Assembly: GCF_007904085.1 (NCBI RefSeq)
Contig: NZ_CP042326.1
Span: 1,612,001-1,676,000 of the forward strand
Source: Euhalothece natronophila Z-M001
GTDB taxonomy: Bacteria > Cyanobacteriota > Cyanobacteriia > Cyanobacteriales > Rubidibacteraceae
Direction: 5' to 3'
DNA length: 64,000 nucleotides
The notes under the pieces: generated by a model
The model's database searches: none
Told to the model about the DNA's origin: nothing
Seen by the model: the letters and a program-made list of their open reading frames with translations, nothing else
Program-made: the position numbers and the translations under genes
In this document: positions 58,356-64,000 of the stretch, in pieces
How positions within the stretch are numbered: position 1 is the stretch's first letter
Layout: the number at the start of each line of letters is the position of its first letter

Positions 58356-59039
58356 TTAATTAGGGGGAAAATAATCTCGGGATTCTTTGGGCTGACTATT
58401 AGTGTAATCCATAGCTTTACCTCGTTTGTTTATTCTTCTGTTCCTCTCTTCTTCCCATAATAAATAGCCTTCTTTCAAAGCATCATCATCATCTAAACCC
58501 ACTAAAATTGGTGACCAGTAATCATCTTCGCAACAAATAACAACTTCATGTTGATTAGAAAATTCGCAAGGTAAAACGACTTGGGTAGGCAAAAGTAAAG
58601 TACCTACTCCTAAAACAGCCTTAAAGTGGTCGAGCTGTTGTTTGACCTTTTTTCGGTTAATTTTTTTATTATTTTGGCTATCCTCCTGATAAGTTTGTTG
58701 AGATTTTGCAGAAGACTCTAAGAAGTTGGACTGAAGTGGAGAAGGTGAGAAACCATCAAGATATAGTGCTAAGTATGCTAGCTTATTACTAGACTCAATT
58801 TGCCTTTGTAAAAAGTCTTGATGATTAATTAAATCATGACTAGCCTCCTCATATAGGTAAGCAATTTTTTCGTATAAAGGGGCAAATTTATCATACTCTT
58901 GGTCATACCAAGTAGCTTCTAAGTTACTCCACTGATTTGACACATCATCCCATCTGCTAGTTAGCTCTTGCTTAAATTTCTCAAGAGTTCTCTTAAAAAT
59001 TTCAGTATCTTGTAAGCTAAAGGAAAAGTGTTGTGACAT
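58356..59039 (-). CDS. WXG100-like protein with an added C-terminal domain
   Basis: The 227-residue protein begins (1-90) as a helical hairpin like the WXG100 protein at 62392-62688: both start with an FSFS stretch, both have QWSNL followed four residues later by a W-x-D turn (here W44-Y-D46), and both continue with EKI. Residues about 105-135 are a polar linker. The C-terminal 90 residues (QLDHFKAVLGVGTLLLPTQ, then EVVICCEDDYWSPILVGLDD) look like a small alpha/beta domain I do not recognise. It may be a secreted effector or adapter with a WXG-type export domain. It is the last large gene of the cluster. Confidence 0.65.
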   Translation of the reverse strand: MSQHFSFSLQDTEIFKRTLEKFKQELTSRWDDVSNQWSNLEATWYDQEYDKFAPLYEKIAYLYEEASHDLINHQDFLQRQIESSNKLAYLALYLDGFSPSPLQSNFLESSAKSQQTYQEDSQNNKKINRKKVKQQLDHFKAVLGVGTLLLPTQVVLPCEFSNQHEVVICCEDDYWSPILVGLDDDDALKEGYLLWEEERNRRINKRGKAMDYTNSQPKESRDYFPPN

Positions 59040-59060: not shown

Positions 59061-60164
59061 TTATTTAGTCATTGCATTAAATACTAACTCAGAAAATTTA
59101 GGAAAAATTTCCCAATTCTGTGCATATGCTTCATTTTCTGTAAAAATTGCTAGAATGTATTTTACTTCTTGATCGGGAGTTTCAATATAAGCAACTTCTT
59201 GGCGAGTATTGGGTGTCCAACCTGCTTTTGATAAAAGCCTAACATCAGGAGATAAACTCTCTCCAAAAAAAGCGAGTACTGGATTAAACTCAAAATTAGG
59301 ATCAATATCTCTCCAATACTCTGGATTTAAATTTCTTTCTAAGTTATTTTTAATTTTTTGGCTATATTGAGAAGAAATTGCTTTCTTATTAACAATTTCA
59401 TACATTAATCTGGCAGAGTTATTAGTAGTCAGTTTATTCCTAATAGGGTTGTTTTCATCTCGCTCTCCTAAGTATCTCATTTTTAGCTCTCGTCCTTTTG
59501 GTGAGTCACCATATTCTTCTAAATAAGGAATTGGATATGTCTTTTGGCTAATATTAATATTGGAATAATTCGCTCTTTTAAAGAAAGAATTAAGTTGTGA
59601 TCGTTTTTTAAGCCATTCCTTAAATTTTTCTTCTGGTAACATTCTCCCAGACTCAGTACCAGTAATTTTATCAATAACTTTACTAGCGTCCTCATTGTCG
59701 GATTTCGTAATCATTTTGCTCATTGAACTAGACAAATCTGGCTCTAAATTAATCAGAGTATTATCTACATATGAATAGGCTATTACTAACCAAAAAAGTT
59801 TAGGTATGCTGGCTGGATATCTAGAAACATCCCCTTGATAATAAGCAAAAGAATTTTGATTCATATCAATAATAGTAATTGAAATGTCTTCTTTTGGTAG
59901 ATTATTTTGGGTACTTAGCAGTAATAAACTATCTATTATTTGTTCTAGTTTTGGGCTTGATTTCAAGTTGGGTGGAGTTTTAACATTATAGGCTTCATTT
60001 TTTTTATCATTTGATAACTTGGTTGAATTCTGTGAATTTGAATCTGAACGATTTTCGTTGGCTTCTTGAGCAATTTCTCGTAAGCAACTAGAGAGCAAAA
60101 TATTGATAATTAAAAAAGTGAAAACAATAAAAGCACCTTTTGCTTTTGGTATTTGCTGTAGCAT
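59061..60164 (-). CDS. serine-hydrolase (class A beta-lactamase-like) lipoprotein
   Basis: The 367-residue protein has a signal with lipobox LLSSC (C27). A polar, N/S-rich linker (about 30-70) leads to a penicillin-binding/beta-lactamase-like fold. The SxxK motif is S119-I-P-K122 in YPASIPKLFWLV. The KTG-like box is altered to KAG in LSKAGWTPNTRQ. The rest (TKSDNEDASKVIDKITG) fits the class A-like family. It would act on peptidoglycan or peptides outside the membrane. Its place in the T7SS-like set suggests opening or remodelling the wall for secretion; this is inference. Confidence 0.78.
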   Translation of the reverse strand: MLQQIPKAKGAFIVFTFLIINILLSSCLREIAQEANENRSDSNSQNSTKLSNDKKNEAYNVKTPPNLKSSPKLEQIIDSLLLLSTQNNLPKEDISITIIDMNQNSFAYYQGDVSRYPASIPKLFWLVIAYSYVDNTLINLEPDLSSSMSKMITKSDNEDASKVIDKITGTESGRMLPEEKFKEWLKKRSQLNSFFKRANYSNINISQKTYPIPYLEEYGDSPKGRELKMRYLGERDENNPIRNKLTTNNSARLMYEIVNKKAISSQYSQKIKNNLERNLNPEYWRDIDPNFEFNPVLAFFGESLSPDVRLLSKAGWTPNTRQEVAYIETPDQEVKYILAIFTENEAYAQNWEIFPKFSELVFNAMTK

Positions 60165-60182: not shown

Positions 60183-60611
60183 TTACAGTCGGCAAGATTT
60201 ATTAGGATTACCACGTTGGTTGATTACATTTTGCGTCTCGTAATTTGATATTTTCCATTTCCCTTGTTCATTACGCAAGTTATAACGTACTAATCTTTTA
60301 TCATCTATAGTATTGTCATCTTGACTAGGTCTTCCATTCATACAGAAAGTTCGTTGTTCTCTCACAATAACTTCGATATGACCAGAATTTCCATTTTGGT
60401 AAAAATTACCAGCATTTTCTATTCTTTGTAGGTTATAGGTATAGTAACCTCCATTATTTTTTAGCCAATCAATAGAACCTTTATTATTTGTTAAGGCTTC
60501 TCCTGTTAAGAGTTGTTTTGATAGTCTTTTGTTATAGGGAGGGGCAAACATTTGCTGCTTAGAGCTTTGCCAACGTTGAATGAGAGCTACTGCTTCTTGA
60601 TCACTCAGTGA
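60183..60611 (-). repeat. duplicated IMS-domain coding DNA, copy 1 (3' part of the kinase gene)
   Basis: The 429 bp encoding the kinase C-terminal domain align without gaps to 61669-62097. Long stretches are identical, and the protein copies match at 114 of 142 positions. It is a direct repeat in which one end is fused to the kinase. Confidence 0.85.
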
Positions 60612-61568
60612 TGGATTCTCTTCTTCTGAGTATTCGAGTTCAGAAATATTGTTTCCTAGTAAAAAACTGATAATCATCAAAGAGCTCACTCCAGCTAAAC
60701 TTGCTAGTTTACCTACTGGTGAAACAGTTTTTTCTTGATTAGTGTTATAATTATGAGGCAGGGCTTGCCAAGCTACTTGTGCTGAAGGAAATCGTCTCTC
60801 TTGAGTGGGTTCTAAATTTTTATCGAGCCAATTAGCAAATGGTTTAGAAATTTGAACTTTCTGACTAAACTGAATCTTAAAATCTTTTTGAGGGAATTCT
60901 GACGGGGACTTTTCTGTTAGCAGAAATAAAATTGTAGCAGCTAAACCGTATAAATCAGTTGAGCAATTAGCTTCCCCTCGTAATTGTTCAGGGGCAATAT
61001 AACCATATGTTCCCACAATTGTTCTTGCTACCGTTGAAGAATGACGATGAGCTTGTACAGCACCAAAATCAACTAAGAATAAGGTATTTTCTTGGTCTTG
61101 AGATGGAGTTTCATAAATTAGATTTTCAGGTTTAATATCTCGATGAATAATTGGAGGATTAAAGGTTTGTAAATAAACCAAGATGTCTAGCACAGAATGG
61201 GCAATTTGCTTGACTTCTTCCTCTTGAGGGTTCCAACCTTTTTTTATGAGACTTGCAAGAGATTTTCCTGGGGCTAACTGTTGAACCAAATAGTAGAGAC
61301 GATCATCGGCAGTTTCGATTTCAAAATCATCAAAGTATTTGGGAATACAAGGATGACTAAGTTCTCTTAAAATGCTAGCTTCTCGTTTAAATAGCTCTTC
61401 TTGTTTCCAATCATTAAGCTGACTTAGTGATAATACTTTTAGTGCAACCTGTTGCTGGTTAGTTTGATCTTGAGCTTTATATGTAAATCCGCTTCCACCT
61501 TGACCTAAGATATCTAAAATTTGGTAACGATTAGCAATTATCTGCCCTGGCTGATATTTAGTAATCAT
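60183..61568 (-). CDS. Ser/Thr protein kinase - TM - IMS (ARC6-like) domain protein
   Basis: The 461-residue protein has an N-terminal kinase (about 14-275) with all key residues: GQGGSGFTY loop (22-30), K44, HRDIKPEN (142-149), DFG (167-169), and APEQL. One membrane helix follows (about 287-304). The C-terminal 142 residues (320-461) are an IMS/ARC6-like domain, present also, 80% identical by hand count (114 of 142), in the next gene upstream. The kinase faces the cytosol and the IMS domain the periplasm. The layout resembles EssB of type VII systems (pseudokinase, TM, external domain), but this kinase looks active. Confidence 0.9.
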   Translation of the reverse strand: MITKYQPGQIIANRYQILDILGQGGSGFTYKAQDQTNQQQVALKVLSLSQLNDWKQEELFKREASILRELSHPCIPKYFDDFEIETADDRLYYLVQQLAPGKSLASLIKKGWNPQEEEVKQIAHSVLDILVYLQTFNPPIIHRDIKPENLIYETPSQDQENTLFLVDFGAVQAHRHSSTVARTIVGTYGYIAPEQLRGEANCSTDLYGLAATILFLLTEKSPSEFPQKDFKIQFSQKVQISKPFANWLDKNLEPTQERRFPSAQVAWQALPHNYNTNQEKTVSPVGKLASLAGVSSLMIISFLLGNNISELEYSEEENPSLSDQEAVALIQRWQSSKQQMFAPPYNKRLSKQLLTGEALTNNKGSIDWLKNNGGYYTYNLQRIENAGNFYQNGNSGHIEVIVREQRTFCMNGRPSQDDNTIDDKRLVRYNLRNEQGKWKISNYETQNVINQRGNPNKSCRL

Positions 61569-61668: not shown

Positions 61669-62097
61669 TTACAGTTCGCAAGATTTATTAGGATTGCTAC
61701 GTTGGTTGATTACATTTTGCGTATCATAGCTTGATATTCTCCATTCTCCTCGTTCATTACGCAAGTTATAACGTACTAATCTTTTATCATCTATAGTATT
61801 ATCATCTTGACTAGGTCTTCCATTCATACAAAGAGTTCGCTGTTCTCTCACAACAACTTCGATATGACCAGAATTTCCATTTTGGTAAAAATTACTAGTA
61901 TCTTCTATACTAGTTAGGTTATAGGTATAATAACCTCCATTATCTTCTAGCCAATCAATAGCACCGCTATTATCTGTATAGGCTTCCCCTGTTAAAATGC
62001 GGGATGCTAGTCTTCTGTTATAGGGAGGTGCAAAAATTTGCTGTTTAGAGTTTTGCCAACGTTCAATGAGAGCTACCGCTTCTTGATCACTAAGCGA
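61669..62097 (-). repeat. duplicated IMS-domain coding DNA, copy 2
   Basis: It is the second copy of the 429-bp segment, encoding residues 84-225 of this protein, and aligns without gaps to 60183-60611. The two copies are in direct orientation 1,486 bp apart and could recombine. Confidence 0.85.
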
Positions 62098-62346
62098 TGA
62101 TTTCTCTTGCTGCGAAATTTGTCCATTCTGGGGACGGCTGTCTTCTTCACTACTTGATGAGGAATCACTAGATCTATTTTGTGTTGATGATCCTCCTGAA
62201 TCTGAACCAAAATTGGAAAAAATTGATGAAAACTGACCTCTAAGATTAGGATTGTTAAAGTTTAATATAAAAATTATCATGATGATACCAGTAATAATGC
62301 TACCAATACTAATCAAGTTTTGCCTTTTTATTTTGTCCTGATCCAT
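61669..62346 (-). CDS. membrane-anchored IMS (ARC6-like) domain protein
   Basis: The 225-residue protein has an N-terminal membrane helix (about 11-28, LISIGSIITGIIMIIFILNF). A Ser/Asp/Gly-rich flexible stretch (about 45-83) follows. An IMS domain fills 84-225 (SLSDQEAVALIERWQNSKQQ at its start). It has Cys in TLCMNG and near the end (NPNKSC) that could pair outside the cytosol. AGGAGG lies a few bases before the ATG. IMS domains occur in ARC6-like division and scaffold proteins. Here the domain is probably periplasmic and part of the secretion complex. Confidence 0.82.
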   Translation of the reverse strand: MDQDKIKRQNLISIGSIITGIIMIIFILNFNNPNLRGQFSSIFSNFGSDSGGSSTQNRSSDSSSSSEEDSRPQNGQISQQEKSSLSDQEAVALIERWQNSKQQIFAPPYNRRLASRILTGEAYTDNSGAIDWLEDNGGYYTYNLTSIEDTSNFYQNGNSGHIEVVVREQRTLCMNGRPSQDDNTIDDKRLVRYNLRNERGEWRISSYDTQNVINQRSNPNKSCEL

Positions 62347-62391: not shown

Positions 62392-62688
62392 TTATAGACT
62401 TGGCAAATTACCTACTTGACTACTTATTTTTTCTTGCTTCTCGATCATTTCTTCCACAAACTTAATATGCTTCTCGTTTGCTTGTTCTGCATCATTATAG
62501 GTGCTTAATATTTTTTCAAATATATCTTCAAAGTCATTTCGCTGTTTATCTTCCCAAGATGATTTTAAATTACTCCATTGGTTTTGAAGCTGTGATTTTT
62601 CTTGACGTAAGTTTTCTTGGCATTTTCTTAATTCTTGCAAAAAAGATTGTGCATCTTTAATGCTAAAAGAAAAATTATTAGAAGCCAT
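62392..62688 (-). CDS. WXG100-type (Esx-like) small helical protein 2
   Basis: The 98-residue, all-helical protein forms a hairpin of two long helices with the turn at W45-E-D47 (W-x-D variant of WXG). QWSNL (37-41) precedes the turn. The end, EKQEKISSQVGNLPSL, is a flexible tail. AGGAGG lies just before the ATG. It closely resembles the N-terminal part of the 58356-59039 protein. Such proteins form dimers and are exported by or are part of type VII systems. Confidence 0.82.
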   Translation of the reverse strand: MASNNFSFSIKDAQSFLQELRKCQENLRQEKSQLQNQWSNLKSSWEDKQRNDFEDIFEKILSTYNDAEQANEKHIKFVEEMIEKQEKISSQVGNLPSL

Positions 62689-62708: not shown

Positions 62709-62984
62709 CTAGGTTTGCTCATTCATCTCTTTCACTACTTGATAAAACTTTTCGATATATTCTAGAGCATCATCTCCATTTTTAGCAGCAGTTTTTAAGT
62801 CGTCTAAAGTTTGTGTAAATTCTTTGCTAAATCGCTCTTTACTTTCTCCTTGCCAAGAGTCATCACATTTTTCCCATTTTCGCTCTAATGATTTCATTTG
62901 CTCTTGAATAAAATCTTGAAAATCTTCCAAGATTCTTAAAAATTTTTCTAACTCTTGTTCATCAACGTCAATATCTCTAGACAT
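62709..62984 (-). CDS. WXG100-type (Esx-like) small helical protein 1
   Basis: The 91-residue, helical hairpin protein has the canonical turn W44-Q-G46 (DDSWQGESKE) in the middle. The charge pattern and length (about 100) match WXG100 proteins such as EsxA/EsxB. An AGGAGG precedes the ATG, and the gene starts 11 bp after the EssC-like gene ends. It probably pairs with the next WXG100-like protein as a heterodimer. Residues at the C-terminus (FYQVVKEMNEQT) include a Tyr-x3-x-E-like spacing that can act as an export signal in ESX systems; that last point is inference. Confidence 0.87.
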   Translation of the reverse strand: MSRDIDVDEQELEKFLRILEDFQDFIQEQMKSLERKWEKCDDSWQGESKERFSKEFTQTLDDLKTAAKNGDDALEYIEKFYQVVKEMNEQT

Positions 62985-62995
62985 AATTTTACCTC

Positions 62996-64000
62996 CTAAT
63001 AACGTTTTTGAAATTGTTCACTATAACTAGATAGTTCTTCTTTAGTGGGAACTGCGTAAGGTTTGAATTTTTCTAAATAATTAGATGCGTCATCATAAAA
63101 ATAGGCTCTCATCCTTGGTAATTTTTGAGCATAAGTTTCTCCAAACATTAAGCGAGAGTCAGATTCAGACATTGTTAAACCTACACGCAAGTCAAAATGA
63201 GTCAACCAAGAGCGATCATCAGCAGTCATTTTGAGAAAAGTTTTAAGGTCTTCTACCCATAGTATGGTATGAATACCTAGTTCAGAGCCTTGGGAAATAA
63301 GCTGACTAACTTTTTCTGCATCTTCTGATAACTCCTCACGATTGCGACGACCCATTGTTGGGCGTAAGTTTTGAGCTTGATTCAAACTTCCGATAGCATA
63401 GATAAAAAATATCGTTTCTCCAAAATCTTCTTCGTCTGGATTTTCGTTGCGCTTGTTAAGACGGCTGTCAAATTCTTCATAAACTTCTCTTAAAAGCATT
63501 GTTGACTTTAAAATTTGCTGTTCTTTATCAGAGAAACGCTTGGCGATTTGAATAGAGAAGTAAGGGCTAAAACAATCTCGAAAGTGAGTTGTCATCTCAG
63601 TCCAATAATTATCCTCATCAGGAATAGATAAATCAATAATTTTGAATTGAGCTGTCTCTGGCTTACGGGAATGAACTAAACTAACTAGGATACCACTAAG
63701 AATGCCAAAAATAATTTCTTCAGATGAACCCACTAAAAGCATATTACTACGAGGACGAGAGCGGAAAATTGCTTTAGTATGATTCCCAATTCGCATTGCT
63801 TCTCCGAGCCAAGCAACACTAGGAGCTTCTTGAACAATCCAATCTTTTTCTTTTAAAACCTGTTTATTTAACTCTTTCAATGAGAGCCATTGAGGGATTT
63901 CTGATAATTGCTTTAATTGACGATTCTGATTGAGATTAGTGGGTTGCGAACCATTAAATACCACCAGAGGTTCTGAGCGTTGATAGTTATTTTCCTCTGC
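62996..64000 (-). CDS. EssC-like FtsK/SpoIIIE ATPase, C-terminal part (partial, runs off the right edge)
   Basis: The frame is open from the stop at 62996 to the window end (334 codons), so the N-terminus lies outside. A GTG at 63964 is only an internal codon. The visible part is one FtsK/SpoIIIE-type domain: a degenerate nucleotide loop (NMLLVGSSEEIIFGILSGIL), an FIYAIGSLNQAQNLR-like strand, SQGSELGIHTILWVEDLKTF and RVGLTMSESDSRLMFGE, ending in PRMRAYFYDD and EKFKPYAVP. This matches the last, non-hydrolysing ATPase module of EssC/YukB-like T7SS motors. Such modules bind WXG100 substrates. It is followed by two WXG100 genes, as expected. Confidence 0.87.
   Translation of the reverse strand, partial: AEENNYQRSEPLVVFNGSQPTNLNQNRQLKQLSEIPQWLSLKELNKQVLKEKDWIVQEAPSVAWLGEAMRIGNHTKAIFRSRPRSNMLLVGSSEEIIFGILSGILVSLVHSRKPETAQFKIIDLSIPDEDNYWTEMTTHFRDCFSPYFSIQIAKRFSDKEQQILKSTMLLREVYEEFDSRLNKRNENPDEEDFGETIFFIYAIGSLNQAQNLRPTMGRRNREELSEDAEKVSQLISQGSELGIHTILWVEDLKTFLKMTADDRSWLTHFDLRVGLTMSESDSRLMFGETYAQKLPRMRAYFYDDASNYLEKFKPYAVPTKEELSSYSEQFQKRY

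Follow-up and report, generated by a model that had tools for sequence, protein, structure and literature searches.

A predicted membrane-spanning protein kinase in a cyanobacterial T7SS-like operon resembles EssB in layout only

Does the pseudokinase EssB of the T7SSb have a catalytically live cousin outside the Gram-positive bacteria? The question is raised by a gene at positions 60183–61568 of the window, by which we mean the whole 64,000-nucleotide stretch of Euhalothece natronophila Z-M001 DNA that was analyzed. A sequence-only reading had taken its product, a kinase with a membrane helix and an external part, for a possible counterpart of EssB.

The kinase gene and its comparison with EssB

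The gene is a 461-amino-acid open reading frame that occupies exactly 60183–61568 on the minus strand (reading from 61568 to 60183); the plus strand across the same interval is closed by many stops. The protein was examined by Pfam, motif positions, hydropathy and AF2 modeling. Pfam identifies a Pkinase domain (aa 15–242, E=1e-36) and an ARC6-like_IMS domain (aa 326–441, E=1.1e-23), E-values that rule out chance matches. The kinase motifs are complete, with a Gly loop at 22–27, K44, HRDIKPEN at 142–149, DFG at 167–169 and APE at 192–194, and this full set marks the domain as one of the Hanks Ser/Thr type. The sole strong hydrophobic segment is a predicted TM at about 288–306, with a moderate mean Kyte-Doolittle value of 1.74 for the best 19-mer. 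In the AF2 model, the kinase and the external domain mostly have pLDDT >80 and the TM and linker are poorly modeled. The external domain has an alpha+beta fold, and its profile matches the structures of ARC6 and CDP1 at E of about 1e-4. Judged by sequence, the gene is an intact protein kinase of ordinary cyanobacterial type, predicted to span the membrane once, and its external part is a recognizable ARC6-like IMS domain rather than an unknown one. The protein is presumably an active kinase, with the IMS domain lying in the periplasm. Two elements of the sequence-only reading are borne out here: the three-part topology, on the minus strand, and the presence of all catalytic residues (K44, HRD at 142–144 and the DFG motif). 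PADLOC matched the protein to the anti-phage kinase PD-T4-6 (E=9e-58), a match put down to generic kinase-domain similarity.

Is this protein a relative of EssB? The layout is certainly the same: EssB/YukC of the T7SSb also has a cytoplasmic kinase-like domain, one TM and an external domain, and also sits beside a T7SS ATPase. Layout and operon context are what could be said for a true EssB/YukC homologue with retained catalysis (leaving aside the distant descent of all kinase folds), an explanation that we regard as barely credible. In EssB all the kinase motifs are degraded (PMC12599244), whereas K44, HRD and DFG are intact in the window protein. The extracytoplasmic domain of EssB is described as helical (PMC3694306), whereas the alpha+beta IMS domain belongs to another fold class. 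Nor is there a match in sequence: BLASTP of the window protein against a genuine YukC from another genome gave E=1.5 and no meaningful alignment, Pfam lists no YukC in the kinase protein, and the YukC/EssB model PF10140 was unmatched in the whole genome, the B. subtilis control being positive. With YukC as the query, the crystal structures of EssB/YukC (6z0f and 4ano) are recovered, but the best 60 structure-sequence matches to the window kinase are ordinary kinases alone. The fold comparison with EssB proposed in the sequence-only reading was run with the kinase model and placed PknB-type kinases nearest (PknB at the top, Z 23.2); EssB was absent among the matches listed, which tells only of ordinary kinases ranking higher and is no evidence by itself. 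The kinase domain is, moreover, nested among cyanobacterial STPKs, as described below. Homology to EssB was rejected on the grounds of sequence search, family model and operon content, and the idea of a live EssB cousin or core counterpart is likewise unsupported: the likeness is one of overall layout only, and the protein is not a relative by any test made. The accompanying suggestion that the two evolved in parallel fares better in one respect, in that the layouts may have converged; shared descent is unsupported.

The surrounding operon and its sister loci

The kinase gene is one of a series of genes that lie on the same strand with intergenic gaps of 11–100 bp, consistent with an operon. 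The EccC/EssC-type ATPase gene is cut by the window edge, with its C-terminal part at 62996–64000 and the full 1021-aa gene at L009:4997-8062 (minus strand); upstream of it lies a gene for a small coiled-coil membrane protein of 148 aa with a hydrophobic C-terminus (L009:8083-8529, minus strand). After the ATPase gene come WXGa (62709–62984, minus strand), a 91-aa WXG100 protein with a WQG motif that matches PF06013 above the cut-off (E=2.6e-6), and WXGb (62392–62688, minus strand), a WXG100-like protein of 98 aa that has WED in place of WXG and falls below the Pfam cut-off. Next is a 225-aa protein (61669–62346, minus strand) consisting of an N-terminal TM (aa 11–29) and an ARC6-like IMS domain, with no kinase. 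No gap in the operon is wider than the 100 bp that separate this gene from the kinase gene, and the latter starts with an ATG without a clear Shine-Dalgarno sequence, so that it may be expressed separately. The kinase gene is followed by a Beta-lactamase2-fold serine hydrolase (PF13354 by Pfam, 367 aa, 59061–60164, minus strand), with an N-terminal membrane anchor or lipobox (SSC) and the SxxK, SDN and KxG motifs kept as SIPK, SDN and KAG; its family suggests a penicillin-recognizing serine enzyme that would act on the cell wall. The last gene encodes a 227-aa protein (58356–59039, minus strand) with a WXGb-like N-terminus (phmmer, 2e-14) and a C-terminal extension, a candidate substrate of the machine.

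Does this operon belong with the T7SSs? It has the EccC/EssC-type multi-domain ATPase and, in WXGa, a WXG100 protein above the Pfam cut-off; together with the diverged WXGb, these confirm the WXG100/FtsK-type setting noticed from the sequence alone. By profile, the top solved relatives of the ATPase family are 4nh0, EccC5 and YukB, and 4nh0 is also the best fold match to the predicted structure of the homologue in locus L033. Of the three FtsK-like domains of the ATPase, the middle one alone has a Walker A motif, and the protein has no clear TM. The ubiquitin-like protein YukD/EsaB was not found (PF08817 was unmatched across the whole genome); the T7SSd likewise has no YukD (PMC11217815). The ATPase and WXG100 genes match the "mobile versions of T7SS" noted by Zhang et al. 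2012 (PMC3482391, Table 1 note 6), which have solo WXG proteins and a YueA-like ATPase of three domains, the middle one active, and occur in cyanobacteria and other phyla. The window operon resembles them in its three FtsK-like domains, the Walker A motif restricted to the middle one, its WXG100 genes, cyanobacterial host and sporadic distribution, but the table note names no kinase, IMS or beta-lactamase-fold partner. The GC content of the locus is 34.1%, against 38.6–44.8% in nearby 8-kb windows, and the ATPase family was found in 10 of 390 genomes of the class, with no match, or weak partial ones, in the five congeners searched. The low GC and sparse distribution fit a mobile element, and the operon is probably a small, mobile system related to T7SS. 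Keyword literature searches turned up no paper dedicated to T7SS in cyanobacteria.

A scan with the ATPase alignment yielded 80 loci. Three of the cyanobacterial ones (L032, L033 and L034) keep the order ATPase, WXGa, WXGb, TM-IMS and Beta-lactamase2 hydrolase. The cytoplasmic part of their IMS protein varies: there is none in L032, and L033 and L034 have what appear by eye to be ankyrin-like repeats; of the four, the window alone carries a kinase in that place. Given this exchangeable cytoplasmic domain (none, ankyrin-like or kinase), the TM-IMS/hydrolase pair looks like a conserved functional piece. Most of the ATPase operons sampled are without the pair: it is missing from L028, L131, L132, L133, L135, L036, L038, L029 and L137, and from the distant L030 and L136 (the stretches of L035 and L027 end too early to be scored). 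A tree of the ATPases puts the window and L032–L034, which carry the pair, in one group of nine that also includes non-carriers. TM-IMS and the hydrolase are thus a recurring accessory and the kinase is particular to the window lineage in this sample; none of them is core. The hydrolases of T7-like operons were not recovered as a single clade, which would fit repeated entry of the pair into these operons or its exchange by recombination.

Other genes of the sister loci bear on the operon core. In L032, a protein with an ADP-ribosyltransferase domain (L032:7210-8478, plus strand; PF01129, 6e-9) is encoded directly after WXGb and is a candidate exported toxin. L038 has a GIY-YIG nuclease-like domain followed by a C-terminal WXG-like region (L038:14378-15196, plus strand), an order opposite to that of the usual WXG toxins. 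These candidate toxins support an export role for the operon core. In several operons, a pair of genes that by eye are nucleotidyltransferase-like and HEPN-like, resembling an MNT-HEPN toxin-antitoxin, lies between the ATPase and WXG100 genes (L027:7673-8342, L131:7286-7919 and L132:8080-8749; the first gene only in L028:12135-12428). In L033, an STPK that stands alone and belongs, broadly, to the kinase group of the window protein is encoded just upstream of the T7SS-like operon, in the same direction (L033:7808-8995, plus strand).

Origin of the fusion and role of the protein

Where did the kinase come from? Its kinase domain is 47–60% identical to those of many cyanobacterial STPKs with differing C-termini. 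A tree built from 50 kinase domains nests it, on well-supported (starred) branches, in this general group of cyanobacterial STPKs, together with two kinases of the same genome. The IMS half has a different history: it pairs with the adjacent TM-IMS gene with 100/100 support, the C-terminal parts of the two proteins being 77% identical, and that gene (61669–62346) is a tandem duplicate that has no kinase. The sequence-only reading would have given up the EssB connection for a kinase in a general STPK clade without a conserved neighborhood, and for the most part this is the picture obtained: the kinase lies within such a clade and is absent from the sister operons, but TM-IMS and the hydrolase are conserved there.

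The IMS/hydrolase pair is also found elsewhere. In a search with the hydrolase as query, an IMS gene directly adjoins the hydrolase in 12 of 29 sampled loci. Among ten larger stretches, seven (L203, L204, L206–L209 and L211) have a kinase-TM-IMS gene directly before the hydrolase, and the other three have an IMS protein without a kinase; no ATPase or WXG100 homologues were flagged among the neighbors listed for these ten. The window has the same arrangement: a single protein joins kinase, TM and IMS, and a PF13354 gene comes next on the same strand. It shares this domain order, with the hydrolase gene immediately after, with cyanobacterial pairs such as that on a plasmid of Picosynechococcus sp. 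PCC 7003 (AWQ21_RS16445/RS15620), but the kinases of those pairs are in another STPK clade and they had no ATPase or WXG100 genes among the neighbors seen. The tree does not give the kinase domain a common descent with this kinase-TM-IMS/Beta-lactamase2 group: the window kinase sits in another supported clade, apart from the main kinase-IMS clade (100/99), and the kinase-IMS fusion therefore occurred more than once. The simplest account is that TM-IMS was duplicated and that a local STPK domain was then fused to one copy, separately from the other fusions. On a Picosynechococcus plasmid, a kinase-TM-IMS gene and hydrolase lie near genes that weakly match Tubulin_2 and FtsA/MreB (L172:919-12825), possibly another envelope or conflict system.

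What, then, might the protein do? The kinase domain of a general cyanobacterial STPK family would have been fused to a duplicated TM-IMS gene within a mobile T7SS-like operon. The IMS domain would act in the periplasm with the beta-lactamase-fold hydrolase and the TM-IMS twin, presumably as partners, and these would read or locally remodel the cell wall. The kinase would then relay the state of the envelope, through phosphorylation, to the ATPase/WXG100 machine on its cytoplasmic face. We lean, by a little, toward this reading as a whole, that of a receptor-like kinase with a periplasmic IMS domain signaling to the machine, in which the protein may be an accessory subunit, sensing the envelope or serving as an anchor, and may regulate a T7SS-like machine by phosphorylation.

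Across cyanobacteria, however, the IMS/hydrolase pair is a module of general occurrence, and finding it in the window is alone no proof of a role in secretion. Any such link may be incidental, since the pair is common without ATPase and WXG genes, and the chief rival explanation is that the kinase-TM-IMS protein and its hydrolase are a general envelope-signaling pair that lies beside the T7SS-like genes without acting on them. The varied neighbors of the pair and its absence from most T7SS-like operons speak for such a bystander. Against it, four operons from a single ATPase clade have the pair in the same position and orientation, and the retention of TM-IMS with a changing cytoplasmic part better suits a locus-specific role; we consider the bystander possible, if somewhat unlikely. 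It seems improbable to us that the protein is an EssB analogue in structure, serving as a scaffold between the cytoplasmic ATPase and parts in the periplasm, with catalysis in second place. The layout is that of EssB, an ATPase without a clear TM needs an anchor, the ankyrin-like repeats that sister operons have in place of the kinase suggest a binding role, and the YukC pseudokinase is known to bind the ATPase (PMC9600267). However, most operons have a separate gene for a TM-containing coiled-coil protein ahead of the ATPase gene, in some cases fused to it, which makes that protein the likelier anchor, and the intact catalytic motifs argue for kept catalysis. The operon is a compact setting in which to ask if phosphorylation controls WXG100/EccC machines.

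Active kinases beside other T7SS-type ATPases

A live kinase in an EssB-like layout within a T7SS has already been published for Gram-positive variants. TscD, TsdD, TseD and TsjD are kinases with this layout in the T7SSc, d, e and j of Bacillota and Actinomycetota, and TscD is reported to keep its active site conserved while sharing no sequence identity with EssB (Garrett et al. 2024, PMC11217815). Like the window protein, these kinases combine a cytoplasmic kinase domain with a TM and an external portion and are encoded among WXG100/EccC-type genes. Their external parts, in contrast to the cyanobacterial IMS domain, are helical or TPR, and they are conserved core members of their systems, whereas the window kinase is confined to a single lineage, in an operon in which no YukD was found. 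New, in that no description was found in the open-licence literature, are the occurrence in a cyanobacterium, an IMS domain as the external part, a cytoplasmic slot that can be exchanged and an origin by fusion. The pattern of a kinase beside a T7SS ATPase is thereby extended from Gram-positives to an operon of diderm cyanobacteria, where the EssB-like layout arose through gene fusion, not descent.

Active Ser/Thr kinases might have been recruited repeatedly as phospho-regulators of EccC/EssC-type machines (as kinase-TM-IMS proteins, as planctomycete fusions and as kinases of the TscD/TsdD type), the EssB pseudokinase being a remnant of, or parallel to, a kinase-controlled ancestor; this is a speculation to which we give a rather low probability. 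In the planctomycete case, four genomes have an N-terminal Hanks kinase in frame with a T7SS-like ATPase (plus strand; L040:7322-12607, L046:7556-12598, L059:7252-12153 and L052:2-4546, the last with its 5' end cut), with HRDxKPxN intact in all four and an internal start for the ATPase possible. Three of these four kinases were placed in the kinase tree and form one supported clade. Such fusions make the link between kinase and machine testable in a single protein. A distant ATPase of the family also occurs in Vibrio, Shewanella and related genomes (L070, L072, L077, L078, L080, L083, L086, L089, L095 and L103), with small helical-looking proteins encoded on either side of it in L077.
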